Below, piece after piece: positions 1-20,299 of a DNA stretch of 21,682 bases. The notes beneath the pieces are model-generated. The model was given only the letters and a program-made list of their open reading frames with translations, did no database searches and was not told the origin of the DNA. A program made the position numbers and the translations under genes. This stretch comes from a virus, in the IMG/VR virus record IMGVR_UViG_3300023174_000706, positions 1 through 21,682 of that record. One strand, written 5' to 3'. The stretch's first letter is position 1. Every line of letters begins with the position of its first letter.

Positions 1-485
1 CCCATATGGATGTTAATAGCAAACTCGTCAAAGCATCCCAATAGATCACCAATCAGAGAGTGCATCTCAAGCGAAGCAATAGACTTTCTGACAATATCAA
101 TGTTGGGGCTTGCCAAACAGGTGTATGGGCCCGGATGACATGATAAACGAATGCCTGCCTCACGAGCAATAGAGCCTGCTTCAACCAACTCAGACACAAT
201 ATCCTGATGGTGCTCTCGTGACAGGTCATCCAAAGAGTAACCCAAATCAGGATGATCCATAAATGGAAAAATTTCACTGCTGACACGGAACATTTTAATT
301 CCGTTATCACGGTTCCACTCCATGATCTTAACTAGATCTTTACTATTTTGAAGTGCTAGTTCACCCACACGATCCAAACTAAAGTTGGACATCCGCAAGG
401 TTCTACTTGTGGTAATCTGATCTTTCTTTTTCAAGCCTTGGTTCATCGTTAGATTTACACAGGCGTATCCGATATTGCGTATCAT
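1..485 (-). CDS. uvdE: UV-damage endonuclease, UvdE family (3'-truncated by window edge)
   Basis: Translating the minus strand from ATG at 485 gives 161 residues and then the window ends; there is no stop, so roughly the C-terminal half is missing. Family marks are visible: GYACVNLTM at 6-14 (Tyr7 and Asn11 match the conserved N-terminal Tyr/Asn), RVSSEIFPFMDH at 67-78 with His78, RLSCHPGPY at 113-121 with metal-binding His117, and INIHM at 157-161 with His160. UvdE enzymes are TIM-barrel, metal-dependent endonucleases that nick DNA 5' to UV photoproducts. In a phage the likely job is repair of UV-damaged viral DNA. The residue after HPG is Pro120, where bacterial enzymes such as the Thermus one carry a lesion-probing Gln; the following Tyr121 is kept. 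A GGAG ribosome site lies 7 bases before the ATG. The C-terminal metal ligands cannot be judged. Confidence 0.88.
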   Translation of the reverse strand, partial: MIRNIGYACVNLTMNQGLKKKDQITTSRTLRMSNFSLDRVGELALQNSKDLVKIMEWNRDNGIKMFRVSSEIFPFMDHPDLGYSLDDLSREHHQDIVSELVEAGSIAREAGIRLSCHPGPYTCLASPNIDIVRKSIASLEMHSLIGDLLGCFDEFAINIHM

Positions 486-494
486 GTTGTCTCC

Positions 495-503
495 ACTATA
501 ACA
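495..503 (-). promoter_or_regulatory. possible extended -10 promoter for uvdE
   Basis: Read on the minus strand, TGTTATAGT is a TGn-extended -10 box (five of six matches to TATAAT). Only a poor -35 (TTGCTT) lies 17 bases upstream, inside the terminator hairpin. The box ends 9 bases before the uvdE ATG, so transcription would start almost at the start codon and would lose part of the GGAG ribosome site. That argues either for read-through from upstream or for a leaderless message. Short AT-rich matches like this are common, so the call is weak. Confidence 0.3.
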
Positions 504-527
504 CAAAAGCCTTGCCGAAGCAAGGCT
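500..527 (-). terminator. intrinsic terminator with UUCG tetraloop
   Basis: On the minus strand an 8-bp perfect stem (AGCCTTGC / GCAAGGCT, 508-515 and 520-527) closes a TTCG loop with C-G closing pair, the very stable cUUCGg tetraloop. It is followed by TTTTGTGT. It lies 26 bases past the stop of the acidic-protein gene and would end the two-gene minus-strand transcript before uvdE. The stem is also symmetric on the plus strand, but there it lacks a good T-tract. Confidence 0.8.
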
Positions 528-553
528 AATGTGGTAAGAATCACACCCGTGAT

Positions 554-799
554 TTAGTCGTCGTTCCTATCAGGAACTGAACCGTCGTCTTCGGAATCCC
601 AATAAAAATTGGGGTCTTCATCTTCAGCAATCTCATCCTGAAAATCTTCAGGATTTGGAATATCATCATCTGTTGAGGGTTTTTCGGTCTCATCCTCATC
701 AGAAGGATCAATATCTCCATAATAAACTTCAAAGTCGTGATGTTCATCATCATCGTAGTTGTCAGGATCAGGATGACCCGCACTTGAATTTCTACCCAT
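554..799 (-). CDS. very acidic 81-residue protein, function unknown
   Basis: The start is set at ATG 799 because AGGAGG sits 6 bases upstream; longer readings would run into the upstream gene. By hand count the protein has 23 Asp and 10 Glu against two Arg and one Lys, a net charge near -30 in 81 residues. Aromatic residues are interspersed (Phe23, Tyr26, Tyr27, Phe53 and the Phe-Tyr-Trp run at 65-67). There is no signal peptide, membrane segment or recognisable motif. Small proteins of this composition from phages are often double-stranded-DNA mimics that block host DNA-binding enzymes, but composition alone is the basis here. It is the second gene of a two-gene minus-strand unit, 10 bases after the 73-residue gene and just before a terminator. 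The strong ribosome site supports it being real. Confidence 0.75.
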   Translation of the reverse strand: MGRNSSAGHPDPDNYDDDEHHDFEVYYGDIDPSDEDETEKPSTDDDIPNPEDFQDEIAEDEDPNFYWDSEDDGSVPDRNDD

Positions 800-809
800 A
801 TAATCCTCC

Positions 810-1031
810 TTACTTAATCTTGCGTTGACTGCCCATAGTGGGTTCAAGATCATTATTCTTGATCCACCTATGAATATATGGATGCGTATCCTCAATGTTC
901 TCGGGATCGTGGATAGATACGAGGTACTGTGGCCCATTACGCGGATCACGCTCAACACGAACAACCATACCTACACGCTCCCACGAACTAATCCAAACCT
1001 TAGTACCAGGTGTCAAAACTGTCTCGGTCAT
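810..1031 (-). CDS. 73-residue protein, unknown; SH3/KOW-like strand pattern
   Basis: The protein is soluble, with alternating hydrophobic strands in the first half (PGTKVWI, GMVVRVER, PQYLVSI). This pattern is seen in small SH3-like or KOW-like beta barrels. The C-terminal part carries Trp56 and a basic end (QRKIK). No family was recognised, so the fold remark is inference from strand pattern only. The ribosome site is weak (GAG about 10 bases before the ATG), unlike its downstream neighbour. It is the first gene after a good sigma70-type promoter at 1096-1123, which implies early host-polymerase expression, with a leader of about 58 bases. Confidence 0.7.
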   Translation of the reverse strand: MTETVLTPGTKVWISSWERVGMVVRVERDPRNGPQYLVSIHDPENIEDTHPYIHRWIKNNDLEPTMGSQRKIK

Positions 1032-1047
1032 TTTAAAAACTCAAATC

Positions 1048-1089
1048 TTAAAATAGTAGGCAGCAACGCGCCGCCAAGTAATGCTTCAT
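1048..1089 (-). promoter_or_regulatory. transcript leader with hairpin and possible 13-codon leader ORF
   Basis: Between the leftward promoter and the 73-residue gene the RNA can fold GGCGGC (1075-1070) against GCUGCC (1064-1059) around a 5-base loop, with one G-U pair. The same stretch reads as a 13-codon ORF from ATG 1089 to TAA (MKHYLAARCCLLF), whose ATG would lie almost at the predicted transcription start. Both may be chance. They are recorded because a hairpin plus a tiny ORF is the layout of a regulated leader. Confidence 0.25.
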
Positions 1090-1095
1090 GCCAAC

Positions 1096-1123
1096 AATAT
1101 ACTACACCAAAAAGTTTTGTCAA
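1096..1123 (-). promoter_or_regulatory. leftward sigma70-type promoter
   Basis: On the minus strand TTGACA (1123-1118, perfect -35) is followed after 16 bases by TATATT (1101-1096, five of six). It points at the two small minus-strand genes. This is a host-RNA-polymerase type promoter and thus a likely early promoter. Its -35 is the left half of a palindrome shared with the rightward promoter. Confidence 0.78.
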
Positions 1124-1126
1124 GGG

Positions 1127-1154
1127 TTGACAGAGAAAAAATCCATGTTACTAT
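1127..1154 (+). promoter_or_regulatory. rightward sigma70-type promoter
   Basis: A perfect TTGACA (1127-1132) is followed after 16 bases by TACTAT (1149-1154, four of six). TATCGT at 1152-1157 with 19-base spacing is a poorer alternative. The -10 box ends 9 bases before the ATG at 1164, so the predicted start lies about 1-4 bases upstream of the start codon and the message would be leaderless or nearly so. The -10 is weaker than that of the leftward promoter. Confidence 0.6.
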
Positions 1155-1163
1155 CGTATAGCC

Positions 1164-2294
1164 ATGAGCAACAAAATTGAGCAACAGTATTGGGGCGACG
1201 AGCCACCTTGGGATCACCTGCCAAAAGACCCTACCGATCTTCGTGTAGCCACACAGTATTGTAGAGCCATTCAATGGTATCACAATATGGCTGACGAAAA
1301 CGATTATAAAAAGTGGGTGGTAGAGTGGATGGGTAAAAATAAATATTCCGCCGCCAATATTGCATTTGTAAAAAAGTTGTCGGATGTAAGCATCTATCCT
1401 GATGAGGTGGATGGTTTGCGCTTAGGTATGAGTATTGGGCCAATCGCTCGCATGCTCACCTTGGGTGCGCCTCTTATAGACAAGCAGATCAGCGATTTGA
1501 AAAAGTGCATCACATATCTGATCTCTAAAGGCAAGCAGGTTCGTCAAGAAGCCGTTGCCTCTGGTAGACCGAGTGTGCGCGATCATGTGCGCGAGCAGGT
1601 GCGCGAACTTATTGAAGAACTTGAACTGCTTGTAGACAAGATTCTTACAGGCGAGAAAATTGATTGGAAACCTGAAGACTTTATTGATGTTCACAAGGTT
1701 AAGCCTATGCAATCCGCCATCATTGCGGATTGGTTTGAACGACAGATGGGCGATATCAATCTTATCATTAGTGGTAAGGCAGACGAACAGTTGAAGGAAG
1801 GATATTCATTGTTTAAGAAGCCTATTCTTAGACGGTATCAGGAATGGCTTACAAGCGTCGTGGCTGCATTCCGTGGTGTAAAGAAGGCTACGCCTACCGT
1901 TCGCCGTGCGAAGCGTAGAAAGTCTCCTATTGACCGTGTAAAGAAGATGAAGTGGCGTAAGGAAGATACTGAACTTGGTATTGTTTCCATTCACCCATCA
2001 CGGATTATTGGTGCATCAAAGGTGATTTTGTTTAATACAAAGTCTCGTGATGTAACTATTCTTGAAGCAGAAACAGTTGATGGTCTTGATGTAGACGGAA
2101 CTACAATCAAGGGAGTTGATCAGAAAACTTGCAAGACTAAGAAGGTTCGTAAGCCTAAAGAGTTCCTGTCGTCTGTGAAGGGTGATGTTGGTATTCGTGC
2201 GTTTAAGAATGCCTTTGATGCTCTAAAAACGGATGAAAAGGAAGCAACAGGACGAACAAATGATGAAACTATTATTTTGATTGTGTACAAATAA
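1164..2294 (+). CDS. 376-residue early protein, conserved in T4-like phages, function unknown
   Basis: No enzyme motif was recognised. The first ~75 residues are rich in Trp and Tyr (YWGDEPPWDHLP near the N-terminus). Residues ~95-170 look helical and include a VRDH-VREQ-VREL repeat. A very basic stretch (RRAKRRKS, then VKKMKWRK) lies near 240-262. A compact C-terminal domain of ~110 residues runs from IVSIHPSRIIGAS to the end. The strings LFNTKSR and TTIKG and the closing GRTNDETI recall the C-terminus of a conserved unknown protein of T4-like phages of aquatic bacteria; that is from memory. The basic patch could bind nucleic acid, as inference only. No ribosome site precedes ATG 1164, and the promoter lies directly upstream, so leaderless translation is likely. 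A late-promoter octamer after the stop separates it from the late genes. Confidence 0.85.
   Translation: MSNKIEQQYWGDEPPWDHLPKDPTDLRVATQYCRAIQWYHNMADENDYKKWVVEWMGKNKYSAANIAFVKKLSDVSIYPDEVDGLRLGMSIGPIARMLTLGAPLIDKQISDLKKCITYLISKGKQVRQEAVASGRPSVRDHVREQVRELIEELELLVDKILTGEKIDWKPEDFIDVHKVKPMQSAIIADWFERQMGDINLIISGKADEQLKEGYSLFKKPILRRYQEWLTSVVAAFRGVKKATPTVRRAKRRKSPIDRVKKMKWRKEDTELGIVSIHPSRIIGASKVILFNTKSRDVTILEAETVDGLDVDGTTIKGVDQKTCKTKKVRKPKEFLSSVKGDVGIRAFKNAFDALKTDEKEATGRTNDETIILIVYK
1575..1610 (+). repeat. three tandem 12-base units inside the 376-residue gene
   Basis: GTGCGCGATCAT, GTGCGCGAGCAG and GTGCGCGAACTT follow one another in frame and encode VRDH, VREQ and VREL. They form one face of a probable charged helix. 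GTGCGCGA is constant. The repeat is short and probably only a local slippage product. Confidence 0.6.
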
Positions 2295-2300
2295 AAGCAT

Positions 2301-2308
2301 GCTAAATA
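2301..2308 (+). promoter_or_regulatory. T4-like late promoter octamer (GCTAAATA)
   Basis: GCTAAATA matches TAAATA of the T4 late box TATAAATA and lies in the 42-base gap 28 bases before the ATG at 2337. It overlaps an 8-base palindrome AGCATGCT (2296-2303). It is the leftmost of the late boxes seen and marks the switch from early to late transcription. Confidence 0.6.
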
Positions 2309-2336
2309 CTATTGTTGAAATGAACAGGAGCATACA

Positions 2337-2768
2337 ATGAGACTGAACATCAGTGAAATTTTGGATTTGGTAAATCAAGCAGAAACTGAAGATCAAAAAA
2401 TCAATTTGCTGCGTAAGAACTATTCGCCTGCAATGGAAGATGTTTTGCAATGGGCGTACAATCCAAATATTGTGTTGTTTACAGACAAGATTCCTCCGTA
2501 TACGCCAGATATGTCGCCGGAAGGGTTGTCTATGACTTCCATATATTCCGAGCACAAACGGTTTTACATGTTCCTTAAAGAGTCTCGTATTGATTTGAGT
2601 AGAAAAGGTATTCTTCTAATTCAAATGCTTGAGGCTCTTGGAAACAAAGAAGCAAAAGTCTTGGAAGGTATTATTAAAAGAAATATTCCAAGTGTACCAA
2701 AAGAACTCGCAGAGAAGTCTTATCCAGGACTGTTCTCTCGTCCTATTCGTATTCCTATGGAGGCATAA
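2337..2768 (+). CDS. DUF6433-like phage protein, function unknown
   Basis: The 143-residue protein opens with a short helical stretch (ISEILDLVNQAETEDQK), then LLRKNYSPAMEDVLQWAYNP at 25-44, a Pro/Tyr-rich segment (PPYTPD) and a second helical half (GILLIQMLEALGNKEAKVLEGI) ending in PKELAEKSYPGLF. This order matches, from memory, a family of T4-like phage proteins called DUF6433. Its role is not established; the order of helices and the conserved 'IxxLL...LE..pkEA..L..i' feel suggests a small helical virion or assembly factor. AGGAG lies 7 bases before ATG 2337 and a late box lies upstream. It is followed four bases later by the 58-residue gene. Confidence 0.8.
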   Translation: MRLNISEILDLVNQAETEDQKINLLRKNYSPAMEDVLQWAYNPNIVLFTDKIPPYTPDMSPEGLSMTSIYSEHKRFYMFLKESRIDLSRKGILLIQMLEALGNKEAKVLEGIIKRNIPSVPKELAEKSYPGLFSRPIRIPMEA

Positions 2769-2772
2769 TAAA

Positions 2773-2949
2773 ATGGGTAGAAATAATGATTATAATGATT
2801 GGGAAGATCGTACTTCTCGCAGAAATCGCAAATCAGAAAACAAGAAAAATCGTAAGCGTGTAAATTCCAATGAGTTGATGGAAAGATTTGGACGCAATGA
2901 GGGCGATGATGATTTATACGAGAATGGCGAAAAATTTAGAAGTCGCTAA
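2773..2949 (+). CDS. 58-residue charged protein, function unknown
   Basis: The start is ATG 2773, with GGAGG 9 bases upstream overlapping the end of the previous gene; the longer reading from 2629 is inside that gene and has no ribosome site. The protein is bipartite: a basic middle (RRNRKSENKKNRKR at 15-28) and an acidic patch (EGDDDLYE at 43-50). It is likely disordered. No family was recognised. Its first 12 bases are identical to those of the acidic gene at 799 (both begin MGRN). It is co-transcribed with the DUF6433-like gene and probably cotranslated with it. Confidence 0.72.
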   Translation: MGRNNDYNDWEDRTSRRNRKSENKKNRKRVNSNELMERFGRNEGDDDLYENGEKFRSR

Positions 2950-2957
2950 AAAACTAT

Positions 2958-2965
2958 ACTAAATA
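2958..2965 (+). promoter_or_regulatory. T4-like late promoter octamer (ACTAAATA)
   Basis: ACTAAATA lies in the 47-base gap before the glycosyltransferase, 31 bases before its chosen ATG at 2997. It shares TAAATA with the other late boxes in the window. Confidence 0.6.
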
Positions 2966-2996
2966 AAATCGCTCACTAATAAAAATGGAGATTAAA

Positions 2997-4136
2997 ATGT
3001 CAAGTGCGAAAAAAATCACGCTTTGTATGATTGTAAAGAATGAGTCTCATGTTATTGAACGCTGCCTGGCTTCTGTTCTACCAGTTATTGACTATTGGGT
3101 AATTGTGGACACTGGCTCTACAGACGGCACACAAGAAAAGATCAAGAAGTTTTTTGATAATGTTGGTATTCCTGGCGAACTACACGAACGCCCTTGGGTT
3201 GATTTCGGCAAAAACCGAAGTGAAGCCCTTGAATTGGCTAAAACAACAGACAACGATTATTGCTTGATGATTGATTCGGATGAAGTTCTAGTATTTGATC
3301 CTGGTTTTGATCCTGACAAGTTCAAGGAATCCCTAACCGCAGATCTTTATAATGTTTTTGCTTTCTACGGCAATACTCGTTATCACCGTCCACAGTTGAC
3401 AAGCAACAAGAAGCGATTCTACTATCGTGGTATTCTGCATGAATATGTGGATTGCCATGATCCTATTGAGAGTCGTGACTTTGCTCGTGGTTTCACTAAC
3501 ACTCCAATTCAAGACGGAAATCGCTCTAAGAATCCAAAGAAGTATCAGGACGATGCTGTGCGATTTGAGGAAGCGTTGAAGGGTGATGTGGATCCCAAGG
3601 ATTTTAATCGTTACCATTTCTATCTTGCTCAGTCGTATCGTGATTCTGAACAATGGGAAAAGTCCCTTGACGCATATCTAAAGCGTGCTTCTTTGGGTGG
3701 TTGGGCAGAAGAAGTGTTCTATAGTTTATTCCAGGCTGGTAGAATACGAGAAATTCTAAAGCAAGGATTGGATGATATCATTGCTTGTTATTTCCAAGCC
3801 TTCCAATCTGCTCCTTGGAGAGCGGAAAGTCTGTGGGCTGCTGCTAGACTTTGCCGATTGGCAGGTCGTTTTGACCAAGCGTATCGTTTCTCCAAGCAGG
3901 CTGTAAAGATTAAGTATCCTGAAGGAGCCCTATTTGTTGGAGAACCCATCTATCAATGGATGATTTTGGATGAATTCTGTATTGCGGCTTATTGGACGGA
4001 AAATTACCGTGAGGCTCGTATGGCAGCCATGCAATTACTTAAGGATAACCGATTCCCACCCGATCAAAAGGAAAGAATTGAGGCAAATTTGAAGTTTGCA
4101 ACAGAAGCCATTATGAATGAGACCGTAACAGTCTAA
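2997..4136 (+). CDS. family-2 glycosyltransferase with C-terminal helical (TPR-like) repeats
   Basis: ATG 2997 is preferred over ATG 2985: GGAG at 2987-2990 sits 6 bases before 2997, while nothing precedes 2985. The 379-residue protein starts with the GT-A nucleotide-sugar fold. LCMIVKNESHVIERCLAS at 9-26 and WVIVDTGSTDGT at 34-45 are typical of GT2, with Asp38 contacting the nucleotide. YCLMIDSDEVL at 88-98 holds the DxD metal site (Asp93, Asp95). RYHFYLAQSYRDSEQWEKSL near 200 begins a helical repeat tail that continues with WRAESLWAAARLCRLAGRFD. The enzyme should transfer a sugar from an activated donor to an unknown acceptor; the repeats probably hold the acceptor protein. It lies in a late transcript just before the fibre gene, so a virion protein or host surface glycan is a plausible target. 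A terminator follows 28 bases after the stop. Confidence 0.88.
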   Translation: MSSAKKITLCMIVKNESHVIERCLASVLPVIDYWVIVDTGSTDGTQEKIKKFFDNVGIPGELHERPWVDFGKNRSEALELAKTTDNDYCLMIDSDEVLVFDPGFDPDKFKESLTADLYNVFAFYGNTRYHRPQLTSNKKRFYYRGILHEYVDCHDPIESRDFARGFTNTPIQDGNRSKNPKKYQDDAVRFEEALKGDVDPKDFNRYHFYLAQSYRDSEQWEKSLDAYLKRASLGGWAEEVFYSLFQAGRIREILKQGLDDIIACYFQAFQSAPWRAESLWAAARLCRLAGRFDQAYRFSKQAVKIKYPEGALFVGEPIYQWMILDEFCIAAYWTENYREARMAAMQLLKDNRFPPDQKERIEANLKFATEAIMNETVTV

Positions 4137-4163
4137 TTTACATTTTTGATTTTTGTAGTGAGT

Positions 4164-4193
4164 AAGGTTGGGCTTTATCGCCCAACCTTTTCT
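4164..4193 (+). terminator. strong intrinsic terminator after the glycosyltransferase
   Basis: A 10-bp perfect stem (AAGGTTGGGC at 4164-4173 with GCCCAACCTT at 4180-4189) and a 6-base loop are followed by TTTTCT. It insulates the upstream late unit from the fibre gene, whose own late box begins at the next base. Confidence 0.9.
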
Positions 4194-4201
4194 CATAAAT
4201 A
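4194..4201 (+). promoter_or_regulatory. T4-like late promoter octamer (CATAAATA)
   Basis: CATAAATA starts directly after the terminator and ends 26 bases before the fibre ATG at 4228. Together they make a compact stop-and-restart junction. Confidence 0.68.
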
Positions 4202-4227
4202 GAACAGAACCCTATTCTGGAGGCGGC

Positions 4228-7200
4228 ATGGCTTTTTCTGCATTCACAACAACACCTTCTATTTTAACGCAAACTGTTGGTGGTCCTGTAATTGATAAAA
4301 ATTACAATGTTACGGTTGGACATACCTTTGCTTTAGGAGAAGCAGTTTATATTAATTCAAGTGGTTCGGTAATCAAAGCAAAAGCGGATTCATTAACAAC
4401 TTCCTACACAGTAGGAATTGTAAAAGGACTTGACACCTCAACAGTAACCATTGGATATCAAGGAGAATTTACGGTTGCCTCTTCGGTAACTGGTTACTTT
4501 CCTCTAGCAACAGGCAATGTTTACTATTTGTCTCCAACAATTGCTGGTGGTATAACCGCAACTTCTCCCACAAGTTCTTCTTTGGTTGTGCAGCCATTGT
4601 TTGTTGCTTCAGGTTCTTATACAGGAATTGTAATAAACTCAATACCCCGACAGAATTACGGATTTACTTCTTTGTATACTCCTGTCGGAACAATGGTTCC
4701 TTTCGGCGGAAAAGCAAATAATATTCCAGGAAACTGGGTGCTGTGTGCAGGTGATGCTCTACCAAAGGGAACAACAAGCACAGACTCATATTACGATCTA
4801 TACTCGGCAATCGGTGAGAAATATGGAGTTCATGGTGTTGCTCAATCAAACAGCACAGGATTGACTGCATACATTACCTTTGATAGTGCAGTTGAAGATG
4901 CCCCAACATATGGATCTGGTCTGCCTGGCAGCACAAAGAATTTTTCTCTTTTAAACAATAGCGTTTACAAAATTACTTGGGGAACCAAGCAAGCGGTTGC
5001 TAGAGTTGCTTCTGCCACAGGATCAACTTCAAATGTTACCTTTACCTTCTTGGCGGGCATTACTGGAGCAACTTCTTCGTTCTCTGGTTTAGTACAAGCC
5101 ACAGAAATTACACTAAACTCTTTGATAGCCGGTGAGGTTGCTGGATACACATCCGACAACTTCTTCCTACCTGATTTTAGAGGTAGAATGGCAATTGGTG
5201 CGGGTAGAGGTATTAATCTTACAAACAGAAGTTTGGGTGCTTTTGGTGGTGAAGAAACTCATACGCTAACCAACTCAGAATTGCCGTCTCATCGTCACAC
5301 AATTCCTCTAAGAAATTCAAGCGGTATTTCTGGTTCTGCTCAGTATGTTTTGGGTGGAGCAACAGGATCGGTTAATGCGGTTTTATCAACAGATTTACAA
5401 ACCAATAGTGCTGTAAGTGATCTGACTGGTGGTGGTCAGGCTCACGAAAATATGTCGCCATTTTTAACTGCAAATTGGATTATTCGCTACAAATCTAATG
5501 TGGGACAACCTGGAATTGAAATAGGCCCTAAGGGAGATCAAGGAATTCAAGGCCCTGTTGGATCAACAGGAGCCACAGGTGTTGGTGCAACCGGTGCAAC
5601 TGGATACGCATCAGGCACGATTACCTACCGTTATACCCCGCTAACCACTCCTCCAAACGGTTACTGGAATGAAACTAGTGGATATCTTAGAGTAAGCGCA
5701 CAGGAAGATAGCAACACAAATATTGCTTCATACATCCAAACCTGGGATGATTCTAACGCTGGAAACAAAGGTATTGTGTTTATTCGTGATGCTTATAATT
5801 CTCCATCATTCTTTAGGATTTACAACATTACAGGAGTATCCACCACAGGAAGTGTTGGCGGGGTGGATTACTATCAGTTTCCTGTATCCTCTTTAGTTTA
5901 TTCAGGTACTGGTACGAGCGGTCAAGCATATAACTTCTTGTTTGTTCCTTATGCAAGCAACGGTATAACTGGAGACACAGGATTACAAGGAAATACGGGT
6001 GCTCAGGGAAATACAGGCGCACAAGGAACTACAGGAATTGACGGAACCTGCGGTTGCCCAACATTTATAGCACCTCAAAGTCCAACCTTTTACATTGATC
6101 CATCATCAACAAATACCACCGCATCAATTTCTTATGCACCATTTAATTTCTCTGCGGTCTCTAGCGAACCAACTTCGTTTGATTATTTTAAGTCTTCATT
6201 GCTAGCATCTTCTGATTACTCGTTTGACGGGTTCTCGGAAATGATAGCACCGCAACCTATAGATACCGTAAATCTTGTAAAGTATAACTTTGATTATTCT
6301 GCAACAGGAACTACTCCATGTGATGGAAACTGCTTGGGAATGACTGGTTATTATAACCTTTCGGATTCGGTTAGACTGGTAAACTCCTCAAGCCCACCTT
6401 CAAAAATAAACATTGTTCTTTCTGCAAACAGCACTTATACCGTAGATAAGCCGTTTGTAATCAAAGATGCAAACATTTCCATGTATGCTCAACCTGGTGC
6501 ATACTACAACAAAACTCCAACAGGTTTGTCTGCTGGATACGCTGATGGAACTACAGGAAGCACTGGACGAGGATATCTAAACATTGATATCTACGGAGAT
6601 ACAAACAATGTTGTGGTTGGCAACTATATTGGCATAAAACCTGAATATTTTGGGTTAACCTCAGCGGCTTCCGCAACAGGATATCAAACACTTTGCGGAA
6701 TCTATCGTGTAAACGATGTGGATTATACGAATGACATTATTCGTGTGGAAGCCCGTATTTTGAGCGGAAGTGGTGTAACCGGAGCGAGAATGTTTACAGG
6801 CTCATTATCATATCCAAGCATCTCACAATTTGATGTGTACACCACATCTGTAGAATTCCAAAATTGTAATGGATTTATGGTTGAGCCTACAGGAGTTCTA
6901 TCTTTAGGAACACCAAATTCTGCTGGTGTTTCGGGATCTCCTTTCATTATAATCCACACAGGTTCTTTAACCGCTGGCGAATACGCCAAGGGTGTTTATG
7001 TTAGTGGAGGAAAAGCATTCTTAGGTAATAGTGTGGGGCTAATGTCTTGGCCAACATATGGAGCCGCTTTATACGCAGCAAATGGTGGATTGATAAATGG
7101 CGTAGGAGTTATAGGTTCCAACAATGGTACATTCAGTTATGCCGAAGCAGGATCTTCAATAATGCTATCGTATCCAATAGTGTCTCGTAACGATACTGCA

Positions 7201-7665
7201 ATCATTCTTGATAGTGGTGCGAAAATGACTATAAATGGATTCAATGTTGATGGTAATAACAGAAGATTCTTATCAGTAAATAACGGAACAACTTCACTAC
7301 TCTTGAATTCTGGTTCTTTGATCGTGAAAGACACTAAACCACAAATAATCATGGATGCAGCACAAACAGGACTTTTAGCATCGCGTGCATCATTTATAAT
7401 TCAAGGAGCAAGCGGTTCTGATGGTGCTATCATTGGTGCTACAGGAACAGTTGGTGTTAGAGGAATAAGTTTAAACTATGCTTCTAGTGGTACAGTAGAG
7501 TTGGGTAGTGCAACCGTTCGCTCATCGGTTACAGGAGGCTCCTTATTAACACTAACCAAAAAGACAGGAACCATAACCTCGGTTTACGCTGCGCCAGCGG
7601 GTGTTGGTGCAAACTTGGGAGATAAGTATCCAGGCACACAACCACCAACAAACGAGGCTAATTAA
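4228..7665 (+). CDS. large tail fibre / adhesin with collar domain and collagen-like repeats
   Basis: ATG 4228 (GGAGG 4 bases upstream) is chosen; a longer in-frame reading from TTG 4168 would start inside the terminator and upstream of the promoter. The 1145-residue protein has several parts. Residues 1-140 form a beta-rich head. A phage tail-collar domain opens with PVGTMVPFGGKANNIPGNWVLC (near 155) and closes with FLPDFRGRMAIGAGRG (near 312) and HENMSPF. Between those halves an unusually long insert of about 100 residues (203-309) is present. Gly-X-Y triplets follow at 433-459 and 579-608, flanking a small beta domain. The last ~500 residues are Gly/Ser/Thr-rich with short repeated strands (SGSLIVKD, SGAKMTIN), as in beta-helix fibres. 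Collagen-like blocks trimerise phage fibres, so a host-binding trimeric fibre is likely. The exact attachment point on the virion is not visible. Confidence 0.85.
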   Translation: MAFSAFTTTPSILTQTVGGPVIDKNYNVTVGHTFALGEAVYINSSGSVIKAKADSLTTSYTVGIVKGLDTSTVTIGYQGEFTVASSVTGYFPLATGNVYYLSPTIAGGITATSPTSSSLVVQPLFVASGSYTGIVINSIPRQNYGFTSLYTPVGTMVPFGGKANNIPGNWVLCAGDALPKGTTSTDSYYDLYSAIGEKYGVHGVAQSNSTGLTAYITFDSAVEDAPTYGSGLPGSTKNFSLLNNSVYKITWGTKQAVARVASATGSTSNVTFTFLAGITGATSSFSGLVQATEITLNSLIAGEVAGYTSDNFFLPDFRGRMAIGAGRGINLTNRSLGAFGGEETHTLTNSELPSHRHTIPLRNSSGISGSAQYVLGGATGSVNAVLSTDLQTNSAVSDLTGGGQAHENMSPFLTANWIIRYKSNVGQPGIEIGPKGDQGIQGPVGSTGATGVGATGATGYASGTITYRYTPLTTPPNGYWNETSGYLRVSAQEDSNTNIASYIQTWDDSNAGNKGIVFIRDAYNSPSFFRIYNITGVSTTGSVGGVDYYQFPVSSLVYSGTGTSGQAYNFLFVPYASNGITGDTGLQGNTGAQGNTGAQGTTGIDGTCGCPTFIAPQSPTFYIDPSSTNTTASISYAPFNFSAVSSEPTSFDYFKSSLLASSDYSFDGFSEMIAPQPIDTVNLVKYNFDYSATGTTPCDGNCLGMTGYYNLSDSVRLVNSSSPPSKINIVLSANSTYTVDKPFVIKDANISMYAQPGAYYNKTPTGLSAGYADGTTGSTGRGYLNIDIYGDTNNVVVGNYIGIKPEYFGLTSAASATGYQTLCGIYRVNDVDYTNDIIRVEARILSGSGVTGARMFTGSLSYPSISQFDVYTTSVEFQNCNGFMVEPTGVLSLGTPNSAGVSGSPFIIIHTGSLTAGEYAKGVYVSGGKAFLGNSVGLMSWPTYGAALYAANGGLINGVGVIGSNNGTFSYAEAGSSIMLSYPIVSRNDTAIILDSGAKMTINGFNVDGNNRRFLSVNNGTTSLLLNSGSLIVKDTKPQIIMDAAQTGLLASRASFIIQGASGSDGAIIGATGTVGVRGISLNYASSGTVELGSATVRSSVTGGSLLTLTKKTGTITSVYAAPAGVGANLGDKYPGTQPPTNEAN
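5524..5604 (+). repeat. first collagen-like block of the fibre
   Basis: The encoded triplets are GPK-GDQ-GIQ-GPV-GST-GAT, then an imperfect Gly/Ala/Thr tail. Such Gly-X-Y runs form triple helices in phage fibres. It directly follows the collar domain and probably acts as a stiff linker. Confidence 0.75.
5962..6051 (+). repeat. second collagen-like block with an 18-base tandem repeat
   Basis: Ten Gly-X-Y triplets are encoded (GIT-GDT-GLQ-GNT-GAQ-GNT-GAQ-GTT-GID-GTC). Inside it, 5989-6006 and 6007-6024 are 18-base near copies, and 6025-6042 is a more diverged third copy. Thr is frequent in the third position and there is a Cys-Gly-Cys just after, which might cross-link the trimer. Repeat number may vary between relatives by slippage. 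Confidence 0.75.
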
Positions 7666-7667
7666 AC

Positions 7668-8168
7668 ATGATATTTGAAAGAAATGAAGCCGGACAATTC
7701 TTAATAAATGGAACTGTGATTCCACGAGATGTATTTTTGTCTATGGAGCCAAATTATACTGAACCAGAAGGAACCATATTTGTTCATTACGAACAAGGAA
7801 TTGGCAGGCGAATCCGAACAAATGTGAAGGAATATAAAATTGGTGGTTCTTGGGATGATGGTGATCGTTATATTAAAAGAATTTCTCAGTTCTCACAAGC
7901 ATCAACATCTCTTTCAATTGAAGCCCAAAAGCAAGAAGCAGAGATTATACAATCAAAACTAGATTCTATACCAAATTATGATAGACGGCGTTTTGATTAT
8001 CCGCCTTTAGAGGATTTGATTGTTGCACTTTGGGAAAATTTGATTGAAAAGAAAACAAAGAAAGCCTCTGGTGTTGAAGCAATCCAAAAGTTAAGAAAGG
8101 CTGTAAAGGATAAATATCCTACAGAAAACAACAATGCCATCAGTCAGGACGAGACAGAAATTAGTTGA
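7668..8168 (+). CDS. 166-residue fibre-associated protein, possibly an assembly factor
   Basis: The gene starts two bases after the fibre stop, with GAGG 10 bases before the ATG, and ends 35 bases inside gp13. The N-terminal half is beta-rich (a GTIFVHYEQGIGRRIR stretch near 36-51). The C-terminal half has RRRFDYPPLEDLIVALWENL (105-124) and ends in LRKAVKDKYP. The 'YP..D...ALW ... VK.KYP' pattern recurs, from memory, in small proteins encoded next to fibres of many phages, some of which help fibre folding or attachment. The role is inferred from that pattern and from position. Full identification is not possible from sequence alone. Confidence 0.75.
   Translation: MIFERNEAGQFLINGTVIPRDVFLSMEPNYTEPEGTIFVHYEQGIGRRIRTNVKEYKIGGSWDDGDRYIKRISQFSQASTSLSIEAQKQEAEIIQSKLDSIPNYDRRRFDYPPLEDLIVALWENLIEKKTKKASGVEAIQKLRKAVKDKYPTENNNAISQDETEIS
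8109..8116 (+). promoter_or_regulatory. possible late promoter octamer (GATAAATA) before gp13
   Basis: GATAAATA fits the late-box pattern and lies 17 bases before the gp13 ATG, inside the end of the 166-residue gene. gp13 has no clear ribosome site, so an extra short transcript could matter. It is coding sequence (Asp-Lys-Tyr) and may be chance. Confidence 0.35.
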
Positions 8169-10629: not shown

Positions 10630-11127
10630 ATGAATAATAATGAACCTAGTAGAGTTGATAAAAATCTATTAGAAGCCTTGAATATGCCGTCTATACCTGC
10701 TCAGAAAATAGTATCTACAGATTCTGTTGTAGTTAAAGTTAGTTCTTCTCTAACAGGAAATACAGATGCTGACCGAGATTATCGGGAAGTTCGTGATAAT
10801 ATTAAGCGCATTATTTTGCAATCTGAAGATGCCATTCAAGGTGTTCTTGAGGTAGCCTCTGAAACTCAGAGTTCTCGTGCTTACGAGGTGGCTGCACAAT
10901 TAATTCAAGCAACACTAGAAGCAAATAATAAATTGATGCATCTACACAAGCAATTAAAAGACATCAAGAAAGAAGATGCACTCAAGGCTGGTGGAAGTGT
11001 AACCACAACAAACAACAATATCTTTGTGGGAAATACTGCTGAACTATCGCGGTTCCTTCGTGCCCGTAAAGATCTAGAAACAGCAACCAAAGAATTACCA
11101 CCAGGAGATATTATAGATGCCTCCTAA
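10630..11127 (+). CDS. gp16: terminase small subunit gp16
   Basis: The 165 residues match the T4 gp16 length (164). A central coiled-coil region runs from DADRDYREVRDNIKRIILQ (46-64) through EVAAQLIQATLEANNKLMHL. The N- and C-termini are polar. gp16 forms a ring that recognises viral DNA and modulates the gp17 motor. Its last 11 bases overlap the start of gp17, so the two subunits are translationally coupled. AAGG lies upstream of the ATG. Confidence 0.85.
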   Translation: MNNNEPSRVDKNLLEALNMPSIPAQKIVSTDSVVVKVSSSLTGNTDADRDYREVRDNIKRIILQSEDAIQGVLEVASETQSSRAYEVAAQLIQATLEANNKLMHLHKQLKDIKKEDALKAGGSVTTTNNNIFVGNTAELSRFLRARKDLETATKELPPGDIIDAS

Positions 11128-20291: not shown

Positions 20292-20299
20292 TATAAATA
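20292..20299 (+). promoter_or_regulatory. T4 late promoter octamer, exact (TATAAATA)
   Basis: TATAAATA is the exact T4 late consensus. It lies in the gap before gp23, 38 bases before the ATG, as expected for the most strongly expressed late gene. Confidence 0.82.

Follow-up and report, generated by a model that had tools for sequence, protein, structure and literature searches.

Closely spaced, probable divergent promoters with a palindromic pair of -35 boxes in an uncultured T4-like phage

We consider it fairly probable that the perfect inverted repeat TGTCAA-GGG-TTGACA, found between divergent genes of a T4-like phage, belongs to two near-consensus housekeeping promoters that are placed back to back, that cannot be occupied at the same time, and whose two directions of transcription compete. 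The repeat lies in the 21,682-base virus record G000, which was analysed over its whole length and is called the window below. A preliminary description of this DNA had proposed back-to-back promoters here, and the sequence, the orientation of the genes and conservation in relatives all support this. The layout is of an already known kind. The site is a clean, well-conserved divergent pair that should compete, in an uncultured T4-like phage, and is otherwise ordinary; it stands ahead of DNA repair genes and, in a relative, also ahead of replication and late transcription genes.

On direct reading, the repeat (1118–1132) consists of TGTCAA at 1118–1123, GGG at 1124–1126 and TTGACA at 1127–1132, and the earlier assignment of -35 and -10 boxes with 16-base spacers on both sides is exact. 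The leftward promoter, on the minus strand, has TTGACA at 1118–1123 and TATATT at 1096–1101, and the rightward promoter, on the plus strand, has TTGACA at 1127–1132 and TACTAT at 1149–1154, preceded by an extended -10 TGn at 1146–1148 that the promoter scan flagged. The two sets thus lie on opposite strands with the -35 boxes inside and the -10 boxes outside. Only 3 bp separate the -35 boxes, 9 bp from centre to centre. The distance between the -10 boxes is 47 bp, and that between the predicted starts about 72 bp. The leftward promoter matches the consensus at 11 of 12 positions and the rightward one at 10 of 12 plus the TG, its -10 box TACTAT being only a moderate match.

A scan of bases 1–3000 returned ten promoter-like sites, with the leftward promoter in first place and the rightward one in second, the latter tied at 10/12 with an alternative leftward reading that uses the same -35 box. 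Shuffled sequence gives a mean of 7.6 such sites, so their number is ordinary and the scores alone stand out. The exact dyad is found a single time in the window and never in 100 dinucleotide shuffles, and three of the five window matches to TTGACA-N15-19-TANNNT (1.9 expected) are at this site.

Two A-rich tracts accompany the boxes and are candidate UP-like elements. The AAAAAGTTTT tract (1109–1118) lies mostly within the spacer of the leftward promoter, at about -52 to -43 relative to the rightward one, and the A6 tract (1136–1141) lies within the spacer of the rightward promoter, at about -47 to -52 relative to the leftward one. In E. coli, contacts of the alpha-CTD are made at about -43 to -52.

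In both the window and a 70.9-kb relative (G001, the record of locus L013), the genes point away from the site. The leftward cluster, on the minus strand, begins with a gene for a protein of 73 aa (810–1031) and one for a very acidic protein of 81 aa (554–799; 33 D+E, 3 K+R), neither of which has a PHROGs or Pfam match, and continues with a UvdE-type UV endonuclease (3–485; phrog_8420, PF03851) that is cut by the end of the window. The ATG of the acidic protein is preceded by GGAGG; this protein and a small one encoded at 2773–2949 on the plus strand, itself without a PHROGs or Pfam match, both start with MGRN. In G001 the leftward cluster continues with genes for an FmdB-like protein, an exonuclease and a 74-aa protein without assigned function, and then for a late-promoter regulator, a helicase loader and a single-strand DNA binding protein, which are like T4 gp33, gp59 and gp32, respectively. 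Of the flanking genes that were scanned with PHROGs and Pfam, none was recognised as coding for a regulator or a helix-turn-helix protein, the 73-aa and 81-aa proteins being without a family.

The first rightward gene (1164–2294, plus strand; phrog_11903) encodes 376 aa and has no assigned function. The right part of the window is a T4-like structural block with head-tail adaptor, head closure, sheath stabiliser, terminase subunits, sheath, tube, portal, protease, scaffold and major head protein, in the T4 order. Among the best 12 of 2,497 records, the portal is nearest to those of cyanophages, with up to 54% identity. Of 23 records with distant homologues of the 376-aa gene, four from cultured phages were inspected (phiM12, Cr30, vB_OspM_OC and BUCT-ZZ01; L688–L691), and in these the gene lies inside same-strand gene runs in the stretches inspected. 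Thus, the arrangement is not general, and compared with these four the divergent junction is seen only in the group of the window itself.

Within that group the site is strongly conserved. Through the 376-aa gene we found 12 related loci in IMG/VR, and the same 12 by profile search; together with the window they form about five sequence groups as judged by eye. TGTCAA, TTGACA, AATATA (the leftward -10), the TG and TANTAT are kept at fixed distances from the ATG in all 12 relatives, both -35 boxes and the leftward -10 box being identical throughout and the rightward -10 varying at its third base alone. Conservation of the dyad was a check named beforehand, and it came out in favour of the promoter pair, with both -35 boxes retained in every relative. 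The 12 aligned rows (the window and 11 relatives, L009 being left out because its sequence is cut short) run without a gap from one -10 box to the other and on to the ATG. The A6 tract is identical in the 12 relatives, and the AAAAAGTTTT tract varies only at 1114 (L006, L007) and 1116 (L011).

Among five group representatives, mean pairwise identity is 97% for the four hexamers as against 83% for the other bases in the 70 bp ahead of the ATG; in the first 900 bases of the 376-aa gene it is 85, 92 and 62% at first, second and third codon positions, respectively, so the promoter elements are conserved beyond their surroundings. The dyad symmetry ends at the edges of the hexamers, the adjoining bases being asymmetric across the relatives as a set, with one additional symmetric pair in L006 and L007. 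Since these flanking bases are variable and mostly asymmetric, -35 boxes are favoured over an operator. A search with the 73-aa protein gave ten loci. Nine sit on contigs that the 376-aa protein had already yielded; in the tenth (L023) too short a stretch of DNA precedes the gene, and this locus was left out at the site. Megablast of bases 1–8000 against the phage collection found no matching record.

The usual distance from the -10 box to the start is seven bases, from which starts are expected at about 1089 (leftward) and 1161 (rightward). The rightward one would lie three bases before the ATG of the 376-aa gene. No Shine-Dalgarno match precedes this gene (+0.6 kcal/mol), in keeping with a start directly behind the promoter, and its mRNA is probably leaderless or nearly so. 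Of 20 other gene starts that were checked in the window, 15 reach a Shine-Dalgarno score of at least -5.9 kcal/mol in strength; the remaining five are at 10630 (-4.7), 783 (-3.7), 1031 (-2.2), 8134 (+0.2) and 2985 (+1.9), and the 376-aa gene is not the sole one without a match. In this check, position 783 is not a true start, 2774 was set one base off, and 4168 and 8953 were left out.

The leftward leader RNA holds a possible hairpin (GGCGGC-loop-GCTGCC, 1059–1075, minus strand) that the scan found to be terminator-like, so the left transcript might often stop early. All its pairs are kept in seven distinct rows and two of the six vary, by G-C/G-U exchange only. With no double changes, and with shuffles yielding equal values, the pairing is not structural evidence beyond conservation of the sequence. 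Rfam gave one chance-level match on 900–1300 (E 0.48, 10 bits against a gathering score of 40). The predicted leftward start coincides with the first base of an ATG from which a 13-codon ORF (MKHYLAARCCLLF, 1048–1089, minus strand) runs over the hairpin. As this ATG is ATC in L006, L007, L008 and L013, a leaderless leader peptide may exist but would not be a conserved feature.

Taken together, these elements suggest a mechanism in which both promoters would be served by the housekeeping (sigma-70 type) RNA polymerase of the host from -35 boxes 3 bp apart. The leftward promoter would supply the cluster of small genes and UvdE and, in G001, also the FmdB-like, exonuclease, gp33-, gp59- and gp32-like genes, while the rightward one would supply the 376-aa gene, whose mRNA would have hardly any leader; activity and timing of the two are predictions from their elements. 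The upstream contact zone of each promoter coincides with the -35 box and spacer of the other, so probably one polymerase at a time is accommodated. The preliminary view that two polymerases could hardly be bound together thus follows from geometry, that is, from the 9 bp between centres and the overlapping upstream regions, and as a prediction it stands. A single polymerase per DNA molecule would then hold the site, and the directions would compete with no dedicated regulator switching between them. The further suggestion of a switch between left and right early genes is unproven, no regulator having been recognised among the flanking genes scanned.

Spacing of such pairs was surveyed in other phage contigs. 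Dyads with a gap of 3 had -10s of at least 4/6 on both sides in 14 of 81 cases (80 of 119 loci being listed), compared with 361 of 16,200 positions drawn at random from those contigs. Full back-to-back pairs with gaps of 0–30 between the -35 boxes were then taken from IMG/VR, among the matches listed. In two such samples, defined by a left -10 of TATAAT (n=98) or TATACT (n=96), the gaps peak at 3–6, 13–18 and 23–28 bp, and the best period within 9.5–11.5 has P=0.003 and P=0.0025, respectively, again among the matches listed; the TATAAT sample consists of the same 98 pairs by gap whether drawn from the loci of its own scan or from all phage loci of the survey. A prediction fixed beforehand (R above about 0.2, phase 4–6) held in a third sample, TACAAT, with n=92, R=0.265 and phase 4.7 among the matches listed. 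Those TACAAT pairs that are unlike the earlier ones gave n=74, R=0.229, phase 5.2 and P=0.02, with 52 of the 74 in in-phase gaps, a set that comprises 16 of the 31 gap values.

Pooling the phage pairs among the matches listed gave n=262, R=0.264 and phase 4.9, with none of 100,000 uniform simulations as high and 188 of the 262 in the 16 in-phase gap values; periods of 10.5–12 fit about equally well. When one pair was kept per cluster of similar spacers, n was 190 and R 0.263–0.268, with 0 of 100,000 simulations as high, among the same matches. A phase of 4.9 puts the -35 centres about 11 bp apart, or one helical turn. The window gap of 3 is at the near edge of the first peak, and as the window spacers are 16 bp as against the usual 17, its -10s are still closer. 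By a crude ORF rule, 63 of the 262 listed pairs lie between divergent ORFs, as against 15 of 786 random sites, and 93 of the 262 lie inside an ORF of at least 50 aa.

Bacterial genomes showed no such rhythm among the matches listed (n=118 after removal of similar pairs, R=0.114, 22,653 of 100,000 simulations as high); this sample was mostly from Clostridia MAGs (80 of 118 loci being listed), with 64 of its 118 pairs in the 16 in-phase gap values, and gaps of up to 6 bp made up 8 of its 118 pairs as against 46 of the 262 phage pairs. Among the listed control pairs, exact -35 pairs without a -10 had the phase of the full pairs (n=26, phase 4.9, P=0.008), which we read as real promoters with poor -10s. 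Exact pairs with one -10 had another phase (n=63, phase 8.2, P=0.001), and a second listed set of one-sided pairs was again out of phase (n=55, phase 7.7, P=0.005); for these we have no explanation, and they count against a spacing rule, as does the bacterial sample. In -35 pairs with one mismatch, a control that excluded those with only a weak -10 (4/6), pairs without -10s showed R=0.05 (n=3,613, P=0.0045) with a visible three-base coding rhythm, pairs with one good -10 gave n=337, R=0.18 and phase 6.4, and pairs with both were too few (n=10).

Phage back-to-back pairs thus seem to be spaced by whole turns of the helix, which may be a novel observation: the titles and beginnings of abstracts listed in our search of the more recent, openly accessible literature do not mention helical spacing of back-to-back -35 boxes. 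We propose only tentatively, and with more doubt than conviction, that phages keep paired -35 boxes on one face of the helix by setting them one, two or three turns from each other, the window pair being in the tightest, one-turn class. If this is true, the two promoters would be built to interact, a polymerase at one using the A-tract spacer of the other as its upstream contact or, alternatively, two polymerases competing for a shared upstream face, and close divergent phage promoters would be a coupling device, more than a matter of packing. A spacing that holds would be a simple, testable rule for coupled divergent transcription and the more interesting part of this work than the site itself; the rule is directly testable because the spacing between the two -35 boxes alone needs to be varied.

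Further promoter-like arrangements were seen in passing. Genome G339 has 26 matches to the back-to-back pattern (11 forward and 15 reverse, where one site can count twice), some of the listed units being 333–383 bases apart, and any match at all is found in 24 of 397 other genomes. Phage contig L532 has matches at four places within about 4 kb, among those listed. In G001, a lone promoter (C1, 2633–2660; L025) has a spacer resembling that of the rightward promoter (GAAAAA..CATGTTA). Behind it lies a strong inverted repeat rich in G+C, which may belong to a small RNA or a terminated leader.

The same two promoters might instead stand close together for reasons of genome economy, both being early and quickly cleared, with no meaningful competition or regulation. 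We regard this as unlikely, though it is to be taken seriously. Compact intergenic space is usual in phages, and the lack of a recognised regulator among the scanned flanking genes fits economy too. In E. coli, bidirectional promoters with a shared -10 showed no measurable interference at basal strength (PMC12825309), which counts against competition and fits economy. In the same source, competition appeared only at high activity, for example after improvement of a -35 box; both -35 boxes of our site are perfect, which suggests high activity and speaks against mere economy, as do the fixed gap and spacers in the relatives and the non-random gaps of such pairs in other phage contigs.

The dyad was also considered as primarily an operator, at which a phage or host repressor binding TGTCAA/TTGACA would shut both promoters. 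Its perfect 12-bp symmetry over both -35 boxes would place such an operator where it controls both directions together. Nevertheless, each half of the dyad is a consensus -35 box, the symmetry does not extend past the hexamers in the window and most relatives, every other copy in the window or the 70.9-kb relative carries two or more mismatches, and no helix-turn-helix regulator was recognised in the flanking genes, although the 73-aa and 81-aa proteins are without a family. The repressor site suggested in the preliminary description is therefore disfavoured, and we think it very unlikely. A single genuine promoter, beside a half that matches by accident or as a remnant, is scarcely credible. 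Chance does often produce single promoter-like sites, with 7.6 expected in 3 kb, but all 12 relatives retain the -35 and -10 boxes of both promoters even though third codon positions diverge.

T4 late promoters carry TATAAATA at the -10 position and no -35 box, and T4 middle promoters have a MotA box at -30; the late motif is absent at the promoter pair. A single copy is present elsewhere in the window (20292–20299), just ahead of the major head protein gene, and G001 has four (39980, 49426 and 67511 on the plus strand, 46724 on the minus strand), each at most about 60 bases before an ORF start. The early region of lambda-type phages, with PR and PRM, likewise has divergent phage promoters close together. 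Unlike there, no operators, repressor gene or lysogeny genes were recognised in the window, whose genes are T4-like, and of the features expected of a repressor switch, symmetry beyond the hexamers was not found in the window and most relatives, nor were repeated operators with fewer than two mismatches in the window or the 70.9-kb record.

A class of divergent back-to-back bacterial promoters was reportedly named in the older literature, for example by Beck and Warren in 1988. Our site is like these in having two complete promoters between divergent genes, with the -35 inside and the -10 outside, and unlike them in that its -35 boxes, with only 3 bp between them, make up a perfect palindrome, whereby the upstream regions of its promoters overlap fully. 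The divergent ilvY/ilvC promoters of E. coli are termed back-to-back in PMC4469952. Overlapping divergent promoters are also found in Pc/Pr of pLS20, where one polymerase is considered to exclude the other (PMC4207663); there, Pr is weak and needs the regulator RcoLS20, with DNA looping involved, whereas no such regulator was recognised at our site. The bidirectional promoters of Warman, Grainger and colleagues (PMC12825309) share one -10, with starts mostly 18 and also 10 or 23 bp apart, whereas our site has no shared -10 but central -35 boxes and predicted starts about 72 bp apart. It is like them in being a short symmetric DNA at which polymerase would bind in two orientations, with competition when the promoters are strong.
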